From: Fusobacterium varium | Lineage (GTDB): Bacteria; Fusobacteriota; Fusobacteriia; Fusobacteriales; Fusobacteriaceae | Length of the DNA: 64,000 bases | Direction: 5' to 3' | NCBI GenBank assembly: GCA_002356455.1 | Contig: AP017968.1 | Coordinates: 1,054,001 to 1,118,000 of the forward strand | Shown here: one piece after another, positions 31,857-37,454 of the stretch | Layout: each line of letters opens with the position of its first letter | How positions within the stretch are numbered: the stretch's first letter is position 1 | The notes under the pieces: generated by a model | Told to the model about the DNA's origin: nothing | The model's input: only the letters and a program-made list of their open reading frames with translations | Database searches by the model: none | Position numbers and translations under genes: made by a program

Positions 31857-32250
31857 AAGTTTCAGTAATTATTCCAAATTATCATAGATAGCACATTTTA
31901 AAAGAAATAATACCTACCTATTTTCAGGCTGAGGTAAAAGAAGTAATAGAAAAGTTAATGAAAGAATTTTTAAAATTGAAATATTATAAATTGAAAAAAA
32001 TTCAAAACAAACAATGGCTAAAAATATAGGAATAGGAATGACTAATAAAGAAAATGAATATATTTATTTTTAAAATGATGATTTATATTGAAAGAAAATT
32101 CTATAAAGTATTTAATAAAAATATGATGCAGATTTAGTTAGAGTCAAAGCTTTATATTTATAAAATCAAAAAGAATTACAAAATTTAACTATAGAAAATT
32201 TAAATTTATTAAATTAATTTATAAAAAATTAGAATATGAAAATATTATAT
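31853..32250 (+). pseudogene. Decayed family 2 glycosyltransferase
   Basis: The reading begins MKVSVIIPNYHR, then a TAG stop, then HILKEIIPTYFQAEVKEVIEK. After an internal deletion and a frame change it continues TMAKNIGIGMTNKENEYIYF, stop, NDDLY, several stops, then ADLVRVKALYL. This matches, block by block, the intact transferase at 35417 (IIPTYNRAHLLMETIPTYIQ, QTAKNKGIELLNKECDYVYFGDDD, AMVGARALYA). The ATG overlaps the end of the Wzy candidate, so it was once part of the operon. Five or more stop codons and the shortening leave no functional product. Confidence 0.85.
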
Positions 32251-32291: not shown

Positions 32292-32927
32292 ATGGAAATA
32301 GTAGCTCATAGAGGTTGTTGGTATTCAGAGGAAGAAAAAAATACAAAAGAAGCTTTAATAAGAGCATTTGAAAAAAGATTTGGAATTGAAACTGATATCA
32401 GAGATAGAAATGGACAATTGGTGATAAGTCATAATATTTCAAATACTTCTTCTATATTATTAGAAGAAATTCTTCAAAAATATAAAGAAATAAATTCAAA
32501 TGTAGTTTTAGAATTAAATATAAAAGCAGATGGAATACAAGAAATGCTACAAGAAATAATGCATAAATATGAAATAAATAATTATTTTGTTTTTGATATG
32601 TCTATTCCAGAAATGGTAATAAGTAAAGCCATAGGAATTAATTTTTTCACAAGAAATAGTGACATTGAAGAACAATGCATTTTATATGAAGATGCAGAAG
32701 GAGTGTGGTTAGATAGTTTTTATATAGAAAATTGGTTAACTCCAGAAATTATACAAAATCATTTGAATAAGGGGAAAAAAATTAGTATTATATCTCCTGA
32801 AATACATGGTTTTAGTAATTTTTCTGTTTGGGAAATGTTAAAAAAGTATAAGTTTCATAAAAATAATAGAGTATATCTTTGTACAGATTTACCAATAAAA
32901 GCAAAGGAGTATTTTGAAAATGATTAA
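32292..32927 (+). CDS. Glycerophosphodiester phosphodiesterase-like protein
   Basis: A 211-residue protein with the GDPD active-site pattern: AHRGCW near the N terminus, FGIETDIRDRNGQLVISHN with the ETD metal ligands and second histidine, and a C-terminal IISPE/YLCTD part of the barrel. The family hydrolyses glycerophosphodiesters or related phosphodiesters. There is no signal peptide, so it is cytoplasmic. AAGGAGGG stands before the ATG at 32292; an in-frame ATG at 32268 lacks a ribosome site. It is shorter than typical GDPDs (about 240 residues) and heads a compact module with HAD, nucleotidyltransferase and cupin genes, suggesting a role in making or trimming a phosphate-linked substituent. 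That role is inference. Confidence 0.75.
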   Translation: MEIVAHRGCWYSEEEKNTKEALIRAFEKRFGIETDIRDRNGQLVISHNISNTSSILLEEILQKYKEINSNVVLELNIKADGIQEMLQEIMHKYEINNYFVFDMSIPEMVISKAIGINFFTRNSDIEEQCILYEDAEGVWLDSFYIENWLTPEIIQNHLNKGKKISIISPEIHGFSNFSVWEMLKKYKFHKNNRVYLCTDLPIKAKEYFEND

Positions 32928-33543
32928 AGCAATATTATTTGATATGGATGGAGTTTTGATTGATGCAAAAGATTGGCATTATGAAGCTTTAAATAAAGCT
33001 TTAGGATTATTTGGTTTAGAAATTAGTAGATATGACCATTTGCACACTTTTGATGGAATACCAACGAAAGTAAAATTAAAAATGTTAGGAGAACAATATT
33101 ATTTGCCAGAGGAGCTTCATCCATTTATAAATCAAATTAAACAAAAATACACTCAAGAATTAATAGAATTAAAATGTAAACCAATGTTTCATCATGAGTA
33201 TGCTTTATCAAAGCTAAAACAACAAGGATATAAAATAGCAGTTTGTTCCAATTCTATAAAAGCAACAATTGAAATGATGATGAAAAAGGCAGAATTAATA
33301 GAATATATTGATTTAATTATAAGTAATGAAGATGTAAAAAAAGCTAAACCAGATCCTGAAATGTATAATATGGCAATAAAAAAATTTGCTTTAAATCCAA
33401 TTGAATGTTTAGTAGTGGAAGACAATCCAAATGGAATAGCAGCAGCGAAAGCAAGTGGAGCTTTTGTATTACCTGTGGGAACTGTGTATGATGTTAATTA
33501 TGCAAATATAATGAAAGCAATAAAAAGGAGTGAAGAAAGATAA
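32920..33543 (+). CDS. HAD-superfamily phosphatase or phosphomutase (beta-PGM-like)
   Basis: A 207-residue HAD enzyme with the nucleophile motif FDMDGVLID (two aspartates), a helical cap, motif II CSNS, the motif III lysine (KKAKPDPEMY), and motif IV VVEDNPNG. This is subgroup I, like beta-phosphoglucomutase or sugar-phosphate phosphatases, not the GmhB heptose bisphosphatase type. The ATG at 32920 overlaps the end of the GDPD-like gene by eight bases; a TTG at 32914 is an alternative start. It is followed after two bases by the first of two nucleotidyltransferases, so it probably prepares or removes a phosphate on the same metabolite. Confidence 0.85.
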   Translation: MIKAILFDMDGVLIDAKDWHYEALNKALGLFGLEISRYDHLHTFDGIPTKVKLKMLGEQYYLPEELHPFINQIKQKYTQELIELKCKPMFHHEYALSKLKQQGYKIAVCSNSIKATIEMMMKKAELIEYIDLIISNEDVKKAKPDPEMYNMAIKKFALNPIECLVVEDNPNGIAAAKASGAFVLPVGTVYDVNYANIMKAIKRSEER

Positions 33544-33545
33544 TT

Positions 33546-34274
33546 ATGGTTAATATTTTAATCCCCTCTTTGGGAAATTCATTATTTTTTAAAGATAGTT
33601 ATTTTCCAAAACCAGTAATAGAAATTTTAGGAAAAACAATGTTAGAAAAAGTAATTGAAAATTATAAAGAAATACAAGAAAAACATTATATTTTTATTTT
33701 TGATGAAAAAAATTGCAATGAATTCCATTTAGATGATTCTGTTAAAAATTTAATTCAGTCAGAAATAGATATATTAATTTTAAAAAATATTACTAAAGGA
33801 GCATTATGTAGTTGTTTAATGGCAATAGAGAAAATAAATAATGATACTCCATTGATCATTGCTAATTGTGATCAAGTAATAGATATTGATTATAAAGAAG
33901 TTATTAATAAATTTAAAAGAGAGAATATAGAAGTAGGAATGATAACTTTTGATAGCATTCATCCTCGTTGGAGTTATATAAGGATTGAAGAAAATCAAGT
34001 AATAGAAGCAGCAGAAAAAAGACCTTTAAGTAAACATGCAATAGCTGGTTTTTATTATTATGAAAAAGGAAGTATTTTTGTAGAAACTGCAAAGAAATCA
34101 ATATTGAAAAATGAGAAATATAATGAAAACTTCTATATTTCTTCAACTATAAATCAAGCTATTTTATTAAGAAAAAAAGTTGGATATTATTCTATTCTAA
34201 GAGAAAAATATCACTCTTTCTATTCGCCAGAGAAAATTAAAGAATATGAAAAATGTATTAAGATAATAGATTGA
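33546..34274 (+). CDS. Diverged sugar-nucleotidyltransferase-like protein, signature loop degenerate
   Basis: A 242-residue protein with the same fold blocks as the neighbour at 34655: PKPVIEILGKTMLEKVIENY, ITKGALCSCLMAIEKI, LIIANCDQVIDID, and HPRWSYIRI. However, the N-terminal nucleotide-binding loop reads ILIPSLGNSLFF where the neighbour has IVIPMAGRGNRF. The glycine-rich G-x-G-x-R pattern with its catalytic arginine is missing. The metal-binding aspartate region (NCDQ) is kept. It may have changed substrate, become a regulatory partner of the second copy, or lost activity. It follows the HAD gene by two bases. Confidence 0.75.
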   Translation: MVNILIPSLGNSLFFKDSYFPKPVIEILGKTMLEKVIENYKEIQEKHYIFIFDEKNCNEFHLDDSVKNLIQSEIDILILKNITKGALCSCLMAIEKINNDTPLIIANCDQVIDIDYKEVINKFKRENIEVGMITFDSIHPRWSYIRIEENQVIEAAEKRPLSKHAIAGFYYYEKGSIFVETAKKSILKNEKYNENFYISSTINQAILLRKKVGYYSILREKYHSFYSPEKIKEYEKCIKIID

Positions 34275-34311
34275 GAAATTTACTATAAACAAATATTATA
34301 TGGAGAAATGT

Positions 34312-34638
34312 ATGAAAATAAATAGATTAGAAAATATGACTAGGGGATGGTTTATTGGAAATTTTGAACCAACTGTATTTAAAACAACTAATTGTGAAGT
34401 AGCTATAAAAAAATATAAAAATGGAAGTTATGAAGAAGAACATTTTCATAAAGTGGCAACTGAAATAACTGTTATTACAAAAGGAAAAGTAAAAATGTTT
34501 GGAGAAATTTTTAATGAAGGAACAATTATAGAAGTAGAACCTGGAGATATAACAGATTTTATGGCTATAGAAGATGCAGAAACTGTGGTAATTAAAATAC
34601 CTGGAATAAATAATGATAAATATTTAGTAAAAGAATAA
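34312..34638 (+). CDS. Small cupin-domain protein
   Basis: A 108-residue single-domain cupin. The first cupin motif is around YEEEHFHKVATEITVITKGKVKMFG, with histidines and a glutamate placed to bind a metal. The second is around VEPGDITDFMAIEDAETVVIK, where the usual histidine is not obvious. Cupins of this size in glycan loci are often sugar epimerases, isomerases or binding proteins. GGAG stands 6-7 bases before the ATG at 34312; an in-frame ATG at 34300 overlaps that ribosome site. Lying between the two nucleotidyltransferases, it probably acts on, or senses, the same activated intermediate. Function is not established. Confidence 0.72.
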   Translation: MKINRLENMTRGWFIGNFEPTVFKTTNCEVAIKKYKNGSYEEEHFHKVATEITVITKGKVKMFGEIFNEGTIIEVEPGDITDFMAIEDAETVVIKIPGINNDKYLVKE

Positions 34639-34654
34639 AGGAGAAAGGAAAATT

Positions 34655-35386
34655 ATGTTAAATATAGTAATCCCTATGGCAGGAAGGGGAAATCGTTTTA
34701 TACAAGCTGGATATGTAAACCCTAAGCCTCTAATAGATATATATGGTCATTTTATGATAGAGTATGTTATTAAAAATCTTAAACCAAATTGTGAACATAG
34801 ATTTATTTATATTTGTCAAAAAGAACATGCAGAAAAATTTAATTTAAAAACAATATTAAAAAAAATATCTTCTAATTGTGAAATTGTAACAGTGGATTAT
34901 ATTACAGAAGGAGCTGCATGTACTGTGCTTTTAGCTCAAAAATATATAGATAATGAAAATCCTTTAATGATAGCTAATAGTGATCAGTTTGTAAATATAA
35001 ATATAAATGATTATTTAGAAGCTCAAAAAGATTTGGATGGATTAATTATGACAATGCCAGCTAATCATCCTAAATGGAGTTATATTAAATATAATAAAGA
35101 AAAATATGTAAGTCTTGTAAGAGAAAAAGAAGTTATTTCTAATGAGGCAACAGTTGGAATATATAATTATAAACATGGGTCAGATTTTGTAAAATATGCA
35201 TATAAAATGATAGAGAAAAATATAAGGGTAAATAATGAGTTTTATGTAGCGCCTGTTTATAATGAAATGATTGAAAATAGGAAAAAAATAGGATTTTATA
35301 ATATTGGAGATAATATGTATGGAATAGGAGTGCCAGAAGATTTAGAAAAATTTATGGACTTGGATCTATGTAAAAAATTTTTTTAA
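34655..35386 (+). CDS. Nucleotidyltransferase (sugar or polyol phosphate type)
   Basis: A 243-residue protein of the nucleotide-diphospho-sugar transferase fold with an intact loop, IPMAGRGNRFIQAGY, followed by NPKPLIDIYG. It also has TEGAACTVLLA, the metal site IANSDQFVNI, and the HPKWSYIKY block shared with its diverged paralogue at 33546. Such enzymes activate a phosphorylated sugar or polyol with an NTP. GGAGAAAGGA lies before the ATG. It closes the GDPD-HAD-nucleotidyltransferase-cupin module and precedes a transferase gene. The substrate is unknown; the family includes CTP- and TTP-using enzymes of capsule loci. Confidence 0.85.
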   Translation: MLNIVIPMAGRGNRFIQAGYVNPKPLIDIYGHFMIEYVIKNLKPNCEHRFIYICQKEHAEKFNLKTILKKISSNCEIVTVDYITEGAACTVLLAQKYIDNENPLMIANSDQFVNININDYLEAQKDLDGLIMTMPANHPKWSYIKYNKEKYVSLVREKEVISNEATVGIYNYKHGSDFVKYAYKMIEKNIRVNNEFYVAPVYNEMIENRKKIGFYNIGDNMYGIGVPEDLEKFMDLDLCKKFF

Positions 35387-35416
35387 AATTAAATTTTTTG
35401 GAAAATGGAGAAAGAT

Positions 35417-36343
35417 ATGGAAGAGAATAGAGAAAAAAAAATAAGTATAATAATACCAACATATAATAGGGCACATTTACTAATGGAAACTATTCCAACT
35501 TATATTCAAAGAAATGTAAATATTATAGAAATAATCATTGTAGATGATTGTTCAAAAGATAATACTAAAGAGGTTATAGAAAAATTACAAAAAAAATACT
35601 CTATAATTAGATATTATAGATTAGAAACAAATAATAGGCAACAAACTGCTAAAAATAAAGGAATAGAATTATTAAACAAAGAGTGTGATTATGTATATTT
35701 TGGGGATGATGATTCTATATTACTTCCTAATTCATTAACTTATCTTATAGATACTTTAAGTAAGAGTGATGTAGCTATGGTAGGGGCCAGAGCCCTTTAT
35801 GCTAGAAGCTTAGATGATATTAAAAATTATTCAGAATTTATAAAAAAAAGTAAAAAATCTAAAAATAAAAAAATTGTTAATTTTGATAAAGATATTTTTG
35901 ATTTTGATTGTGAATATGAAAAACCTTTAGAAGTACCTGTAACAAATGCATTTTTTATGATAAAAAAAGAAATAATAGGAGAAACAAGATTTGATGTAAG
36001 ATATAAAGGCAATGCTTATAGAGAAGAAACTGATTTTACTCTAAGTATAAAGAAAAAAGTGAAAAAAATTATGTATGATTGTAGAGCTATTGGAATAAAT
36101 TATCCAAGAAATATAGCTACAGGTGGGGCACATAAAAAAGGAATTGTTGGAAAAATAATTTGGAATTATTGGGCTATAAAAAATAATAATATCTTTTTAG
36201 ATAAAAATTATAATTATTTGAAAAAAATAAATGAAGTAACTATTTCAAAAAATATTTTAAAAATTAAATTTATTTTTATTCAAATAAAAAGAATATTAAA
36301 AAATATAGTACAGAAGTTATTACTTAAAATAAAAATAGGATAA
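35417..36343 (+). CDS. Family 2 glycosyltransferase (intact paralogue of the decayed copy)
   Basis: A 308-residue GT-A transferase: KISIIIPTYNRAHLLMETIPTY, IIVDDCSKDNT, QQTAKNKGIELLN, and the metal site YVYFGDDDS, with a long basic C terminus. It is the intact relative of the pseudogene at 31853. The two flank the GDPD-HAD-nucleotidyltransferase-cupin module. GGAG stands before the ATG at 35417, with an in-frame ATG at 35405 as a less likely start. It may transfer the residue activated by the preceding nucleotidyltransferase. Donor and acceptor are unknown. Confidence 0.88.
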   Translation: MEENREKKISIIIPTYNRAHLLMETIPTYIQRNVNIIEIIIVDDCSKDNTKEVIEKLQKKYSIIRYYRLETNNRQQTAKNKGIELLNKECDYVYFGDDDSILLPNSLTYLIDTLSKSDVAMVGARALYARSLDDIKNYSEFIKKSKKSKNKKIVNFDKDIFDFDCEYEKPLEVPVTNAFFMIKKEIIGETRFDVRYKGNAYREETDFTLSIKKKVKKIMYDCRAIGINYPRNIATGGAHKKGIVGKIIWNYWAIKNNNIFLDKNYNYLKKINEVTISKNILKIKFIFIQIKRILKNIVQKLLLKIKIG

Positions 36344-36431: not shown

Positions 36432-37454
36432 ATGCAAAGAATAAAGAGAATAATAGCATTTTTTATTCCAGAATTATTAATAGTATTAATATCTAAATTA
36501 GACCCTCAAAACTTATGTTTTAAAAATTTTTTTTGGAATTTTACTTTTTATTTAAAAAAAAATAGTTATGAAGAGAAAATAAAATTTAAATCAAAAATAA
36601 AATTTGGAATTGTTGTTCAAGGACCTGTGATAGAAAAAGATGATTTTACTTATGAAGCATTAAAAGATTTACAAGACAGTTATCCAAATAATGAAATAGT
36701 ATTATCAACATGGAATGATCAAAATAAAGAAAAAATAAATAAAATTAAAGAATTAGGAATATATGTAATAGAAAATAATTATCCTAAAAGTGGAATGGAA
36801 AATATAAATTATCAAATTTATTCAACTTTATCTGGTATAAGATATTTAAAAAAATTAAAAGTAAATTATGTAATGAAACTTAGAACAGATCAAAAAATTT
36901 GTAAAAAAAATGTAGATATATTTTTATTTAATTTAATAAAAACTTTTACAGTAATAGATAGTGAAAATATACAAAAAGAAAGAATTATTGGAATAAATAT
37001 GAACACAATAAAATATAAACCATTTTCTTTTTCTGATTTATTTCAATTTGGAAATATAGAAGATATGGAAAAAATGTGGGATATTCCTTTAACTACAGAA
37101 TTATTTACTTTTAATGATAGAAAAAAATTAAATTGTTCTGTAGAGGAAATGGAAAAATTTCCTAATAGTGAAATGTATATTTATATGAATTTTTTAAAAA
37201 AAATAGGTTTTAAATTTGAATATAATTTGAAATCATATTATAAAAGTTTAAAAGAAAGAACAATTATAATAGATAAAAATACAATAGATCTTTATTGGTT
37301 TAAATATCATATTTTAGATTATGAAAAATATAGAATTTTAGAAGAAAAAATAGATTTTTTAGATTGGTTAAATATTTATACTGATTTTGAAAATTTAGAT
37401 TTTAAAGAATTGAATAAAATAGAAAAGAAAGTATTTAAAATGAAATTATATTAA
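36432..37454 (+). CDS. WavE-family lipopolysaccharide synthesis protein (probable glycosyltransferase)
   Basis: A 340-residue protein with the WavE core: FGIVVQGPVIEKDDFTYE, EIVLSTW, a NYQIYSTLSGI segment, and VMKLRTDQKI, which has the place of a metal-binding acidic site. WavE was named from Vibrio cholerae LPS core synthesis and is treated as a putative glycosyltransferase. A short hydrophobic stretch near the N terminus may bind the membrane. The sequence is extremely AT-rich, with lysine, isoleucine and asparagine in excess, more so than the housekeeping genes around the locus. AGGAGAA precedes the ATG. Confidence 0.82.
   Translation: MQRIKRIIAFFIPELLIVLISKLDPQNLCFKNFFWNFTFYLKKNSYEEKIKFKSKIKFGIVVQGPVIEKDDFTYEALKDLQDSYPNNEIVLSTWNDQNKEKINKIKELGIYVIENNYPKSGMENINYQIYSTLSGIRYLKKLKVNYVMKLRTDQKICKKNVDIFLFNLIKTFTVIDSENIQKERIIGINMNTIKYKPFSFSDLFQFGNIEDMEKMWDIPLTTELFTFNDRKKLNCSVEEMEKFPNSEMYIYMNFLKKIGFKFEYNLKSYYKSLKERTIIIDKNTIDLYWFKYHILDYEKYRILEEKIDFLDWLNIYTDFENLDFKELNKIEKKVFKMKLY

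Follow-up and report, generated by a model that had tools for sequence, protein, structure and literature searches.

The closest described relative of the gene set treated here is the block CJSA_1357-1362 of Campylobacter jejuni IA3902 (HS1/8), which encodes proteins of 212, 219, 241, 111 (ketosteroid-isomerase-like), 109 and 619 amino acids (aa), is largely common to HS65, and is listed, with no function given and no extra sugar reported, in the only paper on such a block found in the open-licence literature (PMC7901785). The gene set itself was found in Fusobacterium varium, in a 64,000-nucleotide (nt) stretch of contig AP017968.1 (positions 1,054,001 to 1,118,000; below, the window) from a genome of 4.12 Mb. 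There, five genes at 32292-35386 encode, in this order, a glycerophosphodiester phosphodiesterase-like protein (GDPD-like), a haloacid dehalogenase-type (HAD) hydrolase, a protein of nucleotidyltransferase fold (NT1), a small cupin and a second nucleotidyltransferase (NT2), all present, co-directional and tightly packed, as the initial annotation of the window had claimed. The C. jejuni sizes correspond to this set, with 212 aa for GDPD, 219 for HAD, 241 for NT1, 109 for the cupin and 619 for NT2 with an extra domain, the likeness being one of size and annotation only; the window cassette differs in having neither an NTF2-like gene nor a fusion of NT2. The analysis described below shows that the five genes are a real conserved unit, modular, widespread and probably horizontally moving, which makes the finding stronger than the initial annotation had it.

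Individual parts of the cassette resemble better characterized systems. In the HS:5 capsule of C. jejuni, one enzyme starts from a non-anomeric phosphate and produces cytidine diphosphate (CDP)-6-fructose, followed by CDP-6-glucitol (PMC10918830), which is a likeness in that a capsule-locus nucleotidyltransferase makes an unusual CDP unit; the CDP-6-D-glucitol pathway differs, however, in having two enzymes only, with a reductase and with no GDPD, HAD or cupin. The addition of D-ribose in C. jejuni HS:2 likewise employs a HAD phosphatase, which removes the leftover phosphate (PMC12096443), but its donor is phosphoribosyl pyrophosphate (PRPP), and neither a nucleotidyltransferase nor a GDPD takes part. 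GMPPA is a non-catalytic paralogue of GMPPB (PMC11228364), and the cassette similarly combines two paralogues that share one nucleotidyltransferase fold, the one canonical and the other degenerate, GMPPA and GMPPB both being among the PDB profile matches; unlike these, the cassette proteins are short and have no C-terminal extension, and their pairing is inferred from linkage and fusion. UgpQ-type cytoplasmic GDPDs share with the cassette GDPD its fold as well as the residues HR, ExD, H and K, and are set apart from it by the GDPD insertion, by a metal-ligand Glu where the cassette family has Asn, and by the polysaccharide-locus context of the latter. A one-to-one match to an assigned nucleotide-sugar pathway was looked for and none was found. 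As identities for the cassette, the routes to O-methyl phosphoramidate (MeOPN), CDP-glycerol, CDP-choline, CDP-glucitol and activated heptose were weighed and discarded; the further enzymes of the MeOPN (mpnA-D) pathway do not recur as cassette neighbours.

Conservation and spread of the five-gene unit

A single-sequence scan of genome contigs found nothing, and the relatives were then obtained by an alignment-based scan, in which a profile search with the GDPD protein against 84,980 species genomes gave 322 relatives, the best 80 of which were kept. Gene content was established by six-frame profile searches at 73 loci, i.e., those at which 4 kb or more of sequence follows the GDPD gene (kept relatives together with some plasmid and phylum loci). 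All five genes were present in 61 of these 73, so that the set does co-occur outside the window, and their order was identical in 46; taken singly, HAD was present in 71, NT1 in 70, NT2 in 71 and the cupin in 63. Complete sets were found in 12 named phyla or candidate phyla in addition to the window's own, that is, about 13, with hosts that include gut commensals, cyanobacteria, plant associates and Campylobacter, and across phyla the cassette sits in surface-polysaccharide loci.

Linkage of GDPD and cupin is also seen in 200 genomes of one Bacillota family, where three genomes have GDPD orthologues (full-length, E < 1e-80) and exactly these three have cupin orthologues (E < 1e-50), at a GDPD-cupin spacing of ~1.7 kb, a coincidence expected about once in 1.3 million if the two genes were independent. 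All seven cupin-bearing plasmid records also carry the GDPD gene, which in one of them is distant from the cupin. Within the set two sub-blocks can be distinguished, GDPD-HAD-NT1 and cupin-NT2, which stand apart in some loci.

On two plasmids, L010 (P. aeruginosa PA83) and L011 (Scandinavium), the cassette adjoins ABC transporter genes, and a protein of ~570-590 aa without assignment looks common to both. Elsewhere the cassette has flagellar neighbours, namely a FlaG-like protein at L017 (by eye) and a flagellin gene at L014, and flagellar glycosylation is possible in some hosts.

A putative route to an activated precursor

The initial annotation had proposed a pathway to a nucleotide-activated precursor, and the findings agree with that part of it, because the genes form one unit, are located in polysaccharide loci and include one sugar-nucleotidyltransferase, NT2, with its signature intact. 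In the model favoured here, which is given about an even chance, the cassette would be a self-contained, transferable pathway to one nucleotide-activated, sugar-type precursor of a surface polysaccharide; for any specific sugar as its product the chance is put lower than that. Precursor synthesis would take place in the cytoplasm, where the GDPD-like enzyme may open the route by hydrolysing a phosphodiester other than an ordinary glycerophosphodiester or, alternatively, act on a sugar phosphate via a cyclic phosphate. The HAD protein would take off one phosphate, the cupin would isomerise the sugar or the product, and a WavE-like transferase would attach the product to the chain. What would be unusual in such a route is a GDPD-fold enzyme at its apparent entry and a degenerate nucleotidyltransferase partner in bacteria, and one solved member would annotate hundreds of surface-polysaccharide loci as well as the C. 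jejuni capsule block.

Several observations weigh against this model. In 10 of the 73 loci, e.g., in Rhizobium and Azospirillum, no cupin was found, so that it is not strictly required; the five gene trees are only moderately congruent (Spearman 0.16-0.62), which indicates that parts of the cassette have been exchanged. A WavE-like gene was not seen in 18 of the 54 long loci, and the NTF2-like protein described below is limited to a minority of loci. No product assignment for the five-gene set was found in the open-licence literature, and IA3902, in which the set is present by gene sizes, showed only the HS1-type capsule and extra MeOPN (PMC7901785). Counted in favour of the model are fusions of NT2 to an NTF2-like domain and to a methyltransferase, fusions of NT1 to NT2, and the cyanophage fusion of a related nucleotidyltransferase to a sugar-phosphate isomerase (RpiB/LacAB).

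The commonest partner of the cassette is a WavE-like gene, which occurs in 36 of the 54 long cassette loci and is likely the dedicated transferase for the cassette product. Among 98 genomes of the window's phylum, WavE is found in two (the window's own and one congener), and the remaining four genomes of this phylum that carry the cassette gave no WavE match, so that WavE appears favoured and not obligatory; it is above the cut-off in three of 200 Lachnospiraceae genomes, two of which have the cassette. In the window, where the five cassette genes, the GT2-like remnant upstream of them and the GT2 and WavE genes downstream all lie on the + strand, the WavE-family gene (36432..37454, PF07507 E 2.7e-22) is separated from the cassette by a glycosyltransferase family 2 (GT2) gene (35405..36343, Pfam Glycos_transf_2 E 9e-28). 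Transfer of the product had originally been ascribed to this GT2, placed at 35417, an assignment disfavoured by the recurrence of WavE and by the finding that no cluster of non-WavE glycosyltransferases exceeded 10 loci among the cassette neighbourhoods.

Some loci contain an extra part, either an NTF2/SnoaL-like protein (Campylobacter, Flavobacteriia), whose domain is fused to NT2 in one Akkermansiaceae genome, or a methyltransferase with a C-methyltransferase C-terminal domain. One Campylobacter genome encodes a 615-aa NT2-methyltransferase fusion, in a layout that by size and annotation is like that of CJSA_1357-1362.

Enzyme features and competing explanations

The first gene of the cassette (32292..32927, with an ATG at 32292 and AGGAGG upstream) encodes a cytoplasmic protein that begins at the first barrel strand and has no signal peptide by eye. 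Its AlphaFold model (pLDDT 96; two rows from plasmid records were left out of the structure-prediction alignments) has the PLC-like TIM barrel of the GDPD type by VIA structural alignment and aligned best with GDPDs, at VIA Z 20.7-18 over 190-200 residues, Loxosceles-type enzymes giving Z 13. The window copy has no Pfam match at E 0.01, and PF03009 is matched by five of 26 homologues. Seven residues (H6 R7 E33 D35 H47 N76 K78) are invariant in 92-93 of 93 homologues. Profile alignment with canonical GDPDs places the invariant Asn76 at a metal-ligand Glu site and Lys78 at the usual Lys, so that the metal site of Glu, Asp and Glu with two His is incomplete, with Asn76 in the place of the third Glu and with H6, E33, D35 and H47 retained. 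The insertion that follows the second strand of GDPDs is gone as well, ~24 canonical residues being unmatched in the cassette family. This insertion has a role in glycerol recognition. The enzyme is read, from its sequence, as a putatively active phosphodiesterase on a substrate other than that of canonical GDPDs, and the missing insertion and the Asn in place of the metal-ligand Glu argue against the ordinary glycerophosphodiester chemistry that had been considered for it. Its best viral structural match is a 716-aa protein of Bodo saltans virus (BFVD A0A2H4UUJ1, 30% identity), named glycosyltransferase/phospholipase, which suggests a fusion of glycosyltransferase and GDPD in a giant virus.

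These same features bear on an alternative in which the cassette would make a nucleotide-activated alcohol or polyol phosphate, as in teichoic acids, with a glycerophosphodiester as the source from which the GDPD-like enzyme frees the alcohol, and with a transferase that adds an alcohol phosphate to the glycan. The GDPD fold of the first enzyme is consistent with that, as are the LicD-like genes that adjoin the cassette in Butyrivibrio loci (by eye) and the precedent of the CDP-6-glucitol enzyme of C. jejuni HS:5 (PMC10918830), whereas the altered metal site, the lost insertion and the position of WavE as commonest partner all point away from it. Furthermore, no kinase, reductase or TagD-type cytidylyltransferase was found as a regular member of the cassette. 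A polyol phosphate product, as suggested in the initial annotation, thus survives as an unlikely outcome, and neither a reductase nor a kinase accompanies the set.

The two nucleotidyltransferase-like proteins differ in the nucleotide-binding signature, and the earlier description of the cassette as containing two nucleotidyltransferases stands for the fold of both proteins and fails for the signature of NT1. NT2 (34655..35386) is a canonical sugar-phosphate nucleotidyltransferase (PF00483, 43.3 bits against a cut-off of 21.2), in which GxGxR...PK is intact in every resolved homologue (77 and 78 of 79, the rest being gaps). NT1 (33546..34274) is likewise above the Pfam cut-off (PF00483, 34.9 bits) and has a degenerate NTP-binding loop, GxGxR being lost in essentially all 85 homologues through replacement of the Arg by F, L, A, Y or S and of the second Gly by S, D or N; the metal-site Asp D110 (77/85) and the sugar-side pair E157/K158 (82-83/85) are retained. 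For both proteins, the best match in a PDB profile search was 4evw, named nucleoside-diphosphate-sugar pyrophosphorylase. In a joint tree NT1 and NT2 form two separate groups, with an SH-aLRT support of 83 for NT1 and only 43 for NT2; the labels change three times on the tree, where shuffling gives a mean of 28, from which it follows that the duplication probably predates the spread of the cassette. NT1 and NT2 are fused in Rhizobium and Azospirillum, which have a third NT-like gene in addition. In cupin-less loci, a third NT-like protein also has a degenerate loop (L013:10915-11634, L009:10946-11668).

The motif pattern of NT1 suggests either a degenerate partner, like GMPPA beside GMPPB, or a repurposed enzyme, and the probable role of NT1 is that of a partner to NT2, be it non-catalytic or repurposed. 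A distinctly unlikely variant is that NT1 has gained a further catalytic activity towards the sugar on which NT2 acts, for example transfer or the handling of phosphate, so that two successive reactions of the nucleotidyltransferase fold would occur; retention of the metal-site Asp and of the Glu-Lys pair despite the lost nucleotide loop would fit this, but the NT1-NT2 fusion and the GMPPA/GMPPB precedent suit a partner role equally.

The HAD hydrolase (32914..33543; HAD_2 131 bits) belongs to a subfamily like that of beta-phosphoglucomutase (beta-PGM) and has invariant D10, D12, S112, K145, E169 and D170. In a hand alignment, an invariant Thr51 takes the place of Arg49 of beta-PGM, which contacts the distal phosphate, and the protein is under the cut-offs of both beta-PGM models (TIGR01990, 100.9 vs 189.4; TIGR02009, 120.1 vs 153.35), so that a phosphatase is likelier than a mutase and the protein is probably a phosphatase. 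The cupin (34300..34638) is a small single-domain protein with an invariant H48-x-H50 and E55. The window copy is under the Pfam cut-off, Cupin_2 is matched by 15 of 24 homologues, and the PDB profile search returned no relative. The top structural matches of its model (pLDDT 89) are nucleotide-sugar 3,4-ketoisomerases (FdtA/QdtA/WlaR) at Z 11.5, with other cupins within 1 of that value.

GDPD orthologues are present in 12 of 49 Campylobacter genomes, and the set was seen at 11 loci read fully or partly. In six of these 11 (L148, L150, L152, L153, L154, L156), a tract of G9-G14 lies at nt 115-125 of the GDPD gene, directly following the ETDxRD motif; three of the six have a broken GDPD frame in the sequenced copy. 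Such G runs are a classical switch of Campylobacter surface genes. The tract suggests that product formation requires GDPD and yields something exposed, and in Campylobacter the cassette is probably switchable by a G tract of the contingency type, as judged from these gene sequences. A second module stands beside the cassette in three Campylobacter loci (L149:6270-8775, L153:4083-6720, L154:4418-7064) and consists of a small HAD protein of ~131 aa, a 507-aa protein that is NT-like in one part and kinase-like in another, and a further nucleotidyltransferase, with sizes that correspond to CJSA_1353-1355.

The switch-like tract, whose place in GDPD would be expected of a gene on which the product depends, also speaks against a further, improbable explanation, in which GDPD and HAD would do housekeeping by clearing toxic or dead-end phosphates and the product would come from the NT2-cupin part only. 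The separation of the two sub-blocks in some loci is in its favour, but it is GDPD, HAD and NT1 that recur most constantly in the cassette (HAD in 71/73 loci, NT1 in 70/73). That the cassette is a relabelled MeOPN, CDP-glycerol, CDP-choline or heptose-activation pathway, all of which have a nucleotidyltransferase in polysaccharide loci and the last of which has genes adjoining the cassette, is highly improbable, given that IA3902 has mpnA-D and tagD in addition to CJSA_1357-1362 (PMC7901785), that the window has separate genes for heptose activation and that none of the five cassette proteins reaches an equivalog-model cut-off.

The swap site and variant sets

In the window, the GDPD and HAD genes overlap by 14 nt, and ribosome-binding sites were seen ahead of GDPD, HAD, NT1 and NT2. 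Upstream of the cassette lie hddA-, gmhA- and hddC-like heptose-activation genes, which are best matches yet under the equivalog cut-offs, together with a membrane protein; downstream follow GT2, WavE, a 326-aa protein without assignment, rmlA and rmlC. The hddA-gmhA-hddC genes are conserved in three congeners at about 90-92% DNA identity to the window, and rmlA-rmlC in two of the three at 92-93%, and the intervening 8 kb, which in the window holds the cassette, consists in the three congeners of other, cassette-free genes. The cassette locus is thus a swap site. A degenerate remnant of a GT2-like gene with a broken frame (31857..32100), which lies immediately upstream of the cassette, has 74% DNA identity across 160 bp to 35567-35721 in the first part of the intact GT2; it belongs to the swapped block and not to the pathway, and is possibly a footprint of the swap. 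No DNA match was found in E. coli genomes for the window or for a Scandinavium copy of the cassette.

Variants on phages and plasmids hint at sugar-phosphate, perhaps pentose, chemistry. In two cyanophages (L132, L133), a cupin of the cassette family (32-34% identity) adjoins a fusion of a nucleotidyltransferase with an RpiB/LacAB isomerase, and a PfkB-like kinase and a phosphatase lie beside the cupin; in one of the two, a short GDPD-like protein, a class II aldolase and a two-domain NT fusion are encoded in the vicinity as well. A distant GDPD is combined with GtrA, GT2, an enzyme of the phosphoribulokinase/uridine-kinase type and an aldolase on plasmids of E. coli, Azospirillum brasilense and Hirschia. 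A search of the cassette loci for genes of the RpiB, PfkB, class II aldolase and phosphoribulokinase-like kinds gave none, so that they are pointers and not parts of the cassette.

Together with the loss of the GDPD insertion, the cyanophage NT-isomerase fusion near PfkB and the kinase and aldolase of the variant set are pointers only to a more specific version of the precursor route, regarded as a small chance, namely a new path to an activated pentofuranose or ketose via a 1,2-cyclic sugar phosphate. In that path, the GDPD-fold enzyme would form or open the cyclic phosphate, leaving a phosphate on the anomeric carbon, HAD would strip the other phosphate, and an NT1-NT2 complex would make the nucleotide donor from the anomeric phosphate.

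The two cyanophage loci, Bellamy (L132:2350-15868) and L133, contain a large polysaccharide cluster that includes heptose-activation genes, with the NT-NT fusion in Bellamy. The variant set at L012:6022-14984, L100:6157-13541 and L101 comprises an NT-NT fusion, GtrA, GT2, a distant GDPD, HAD and a class II aldolase, and also a fusion that joins a phosphoribulokinase/uridine-kinase domain to a membrane protein.

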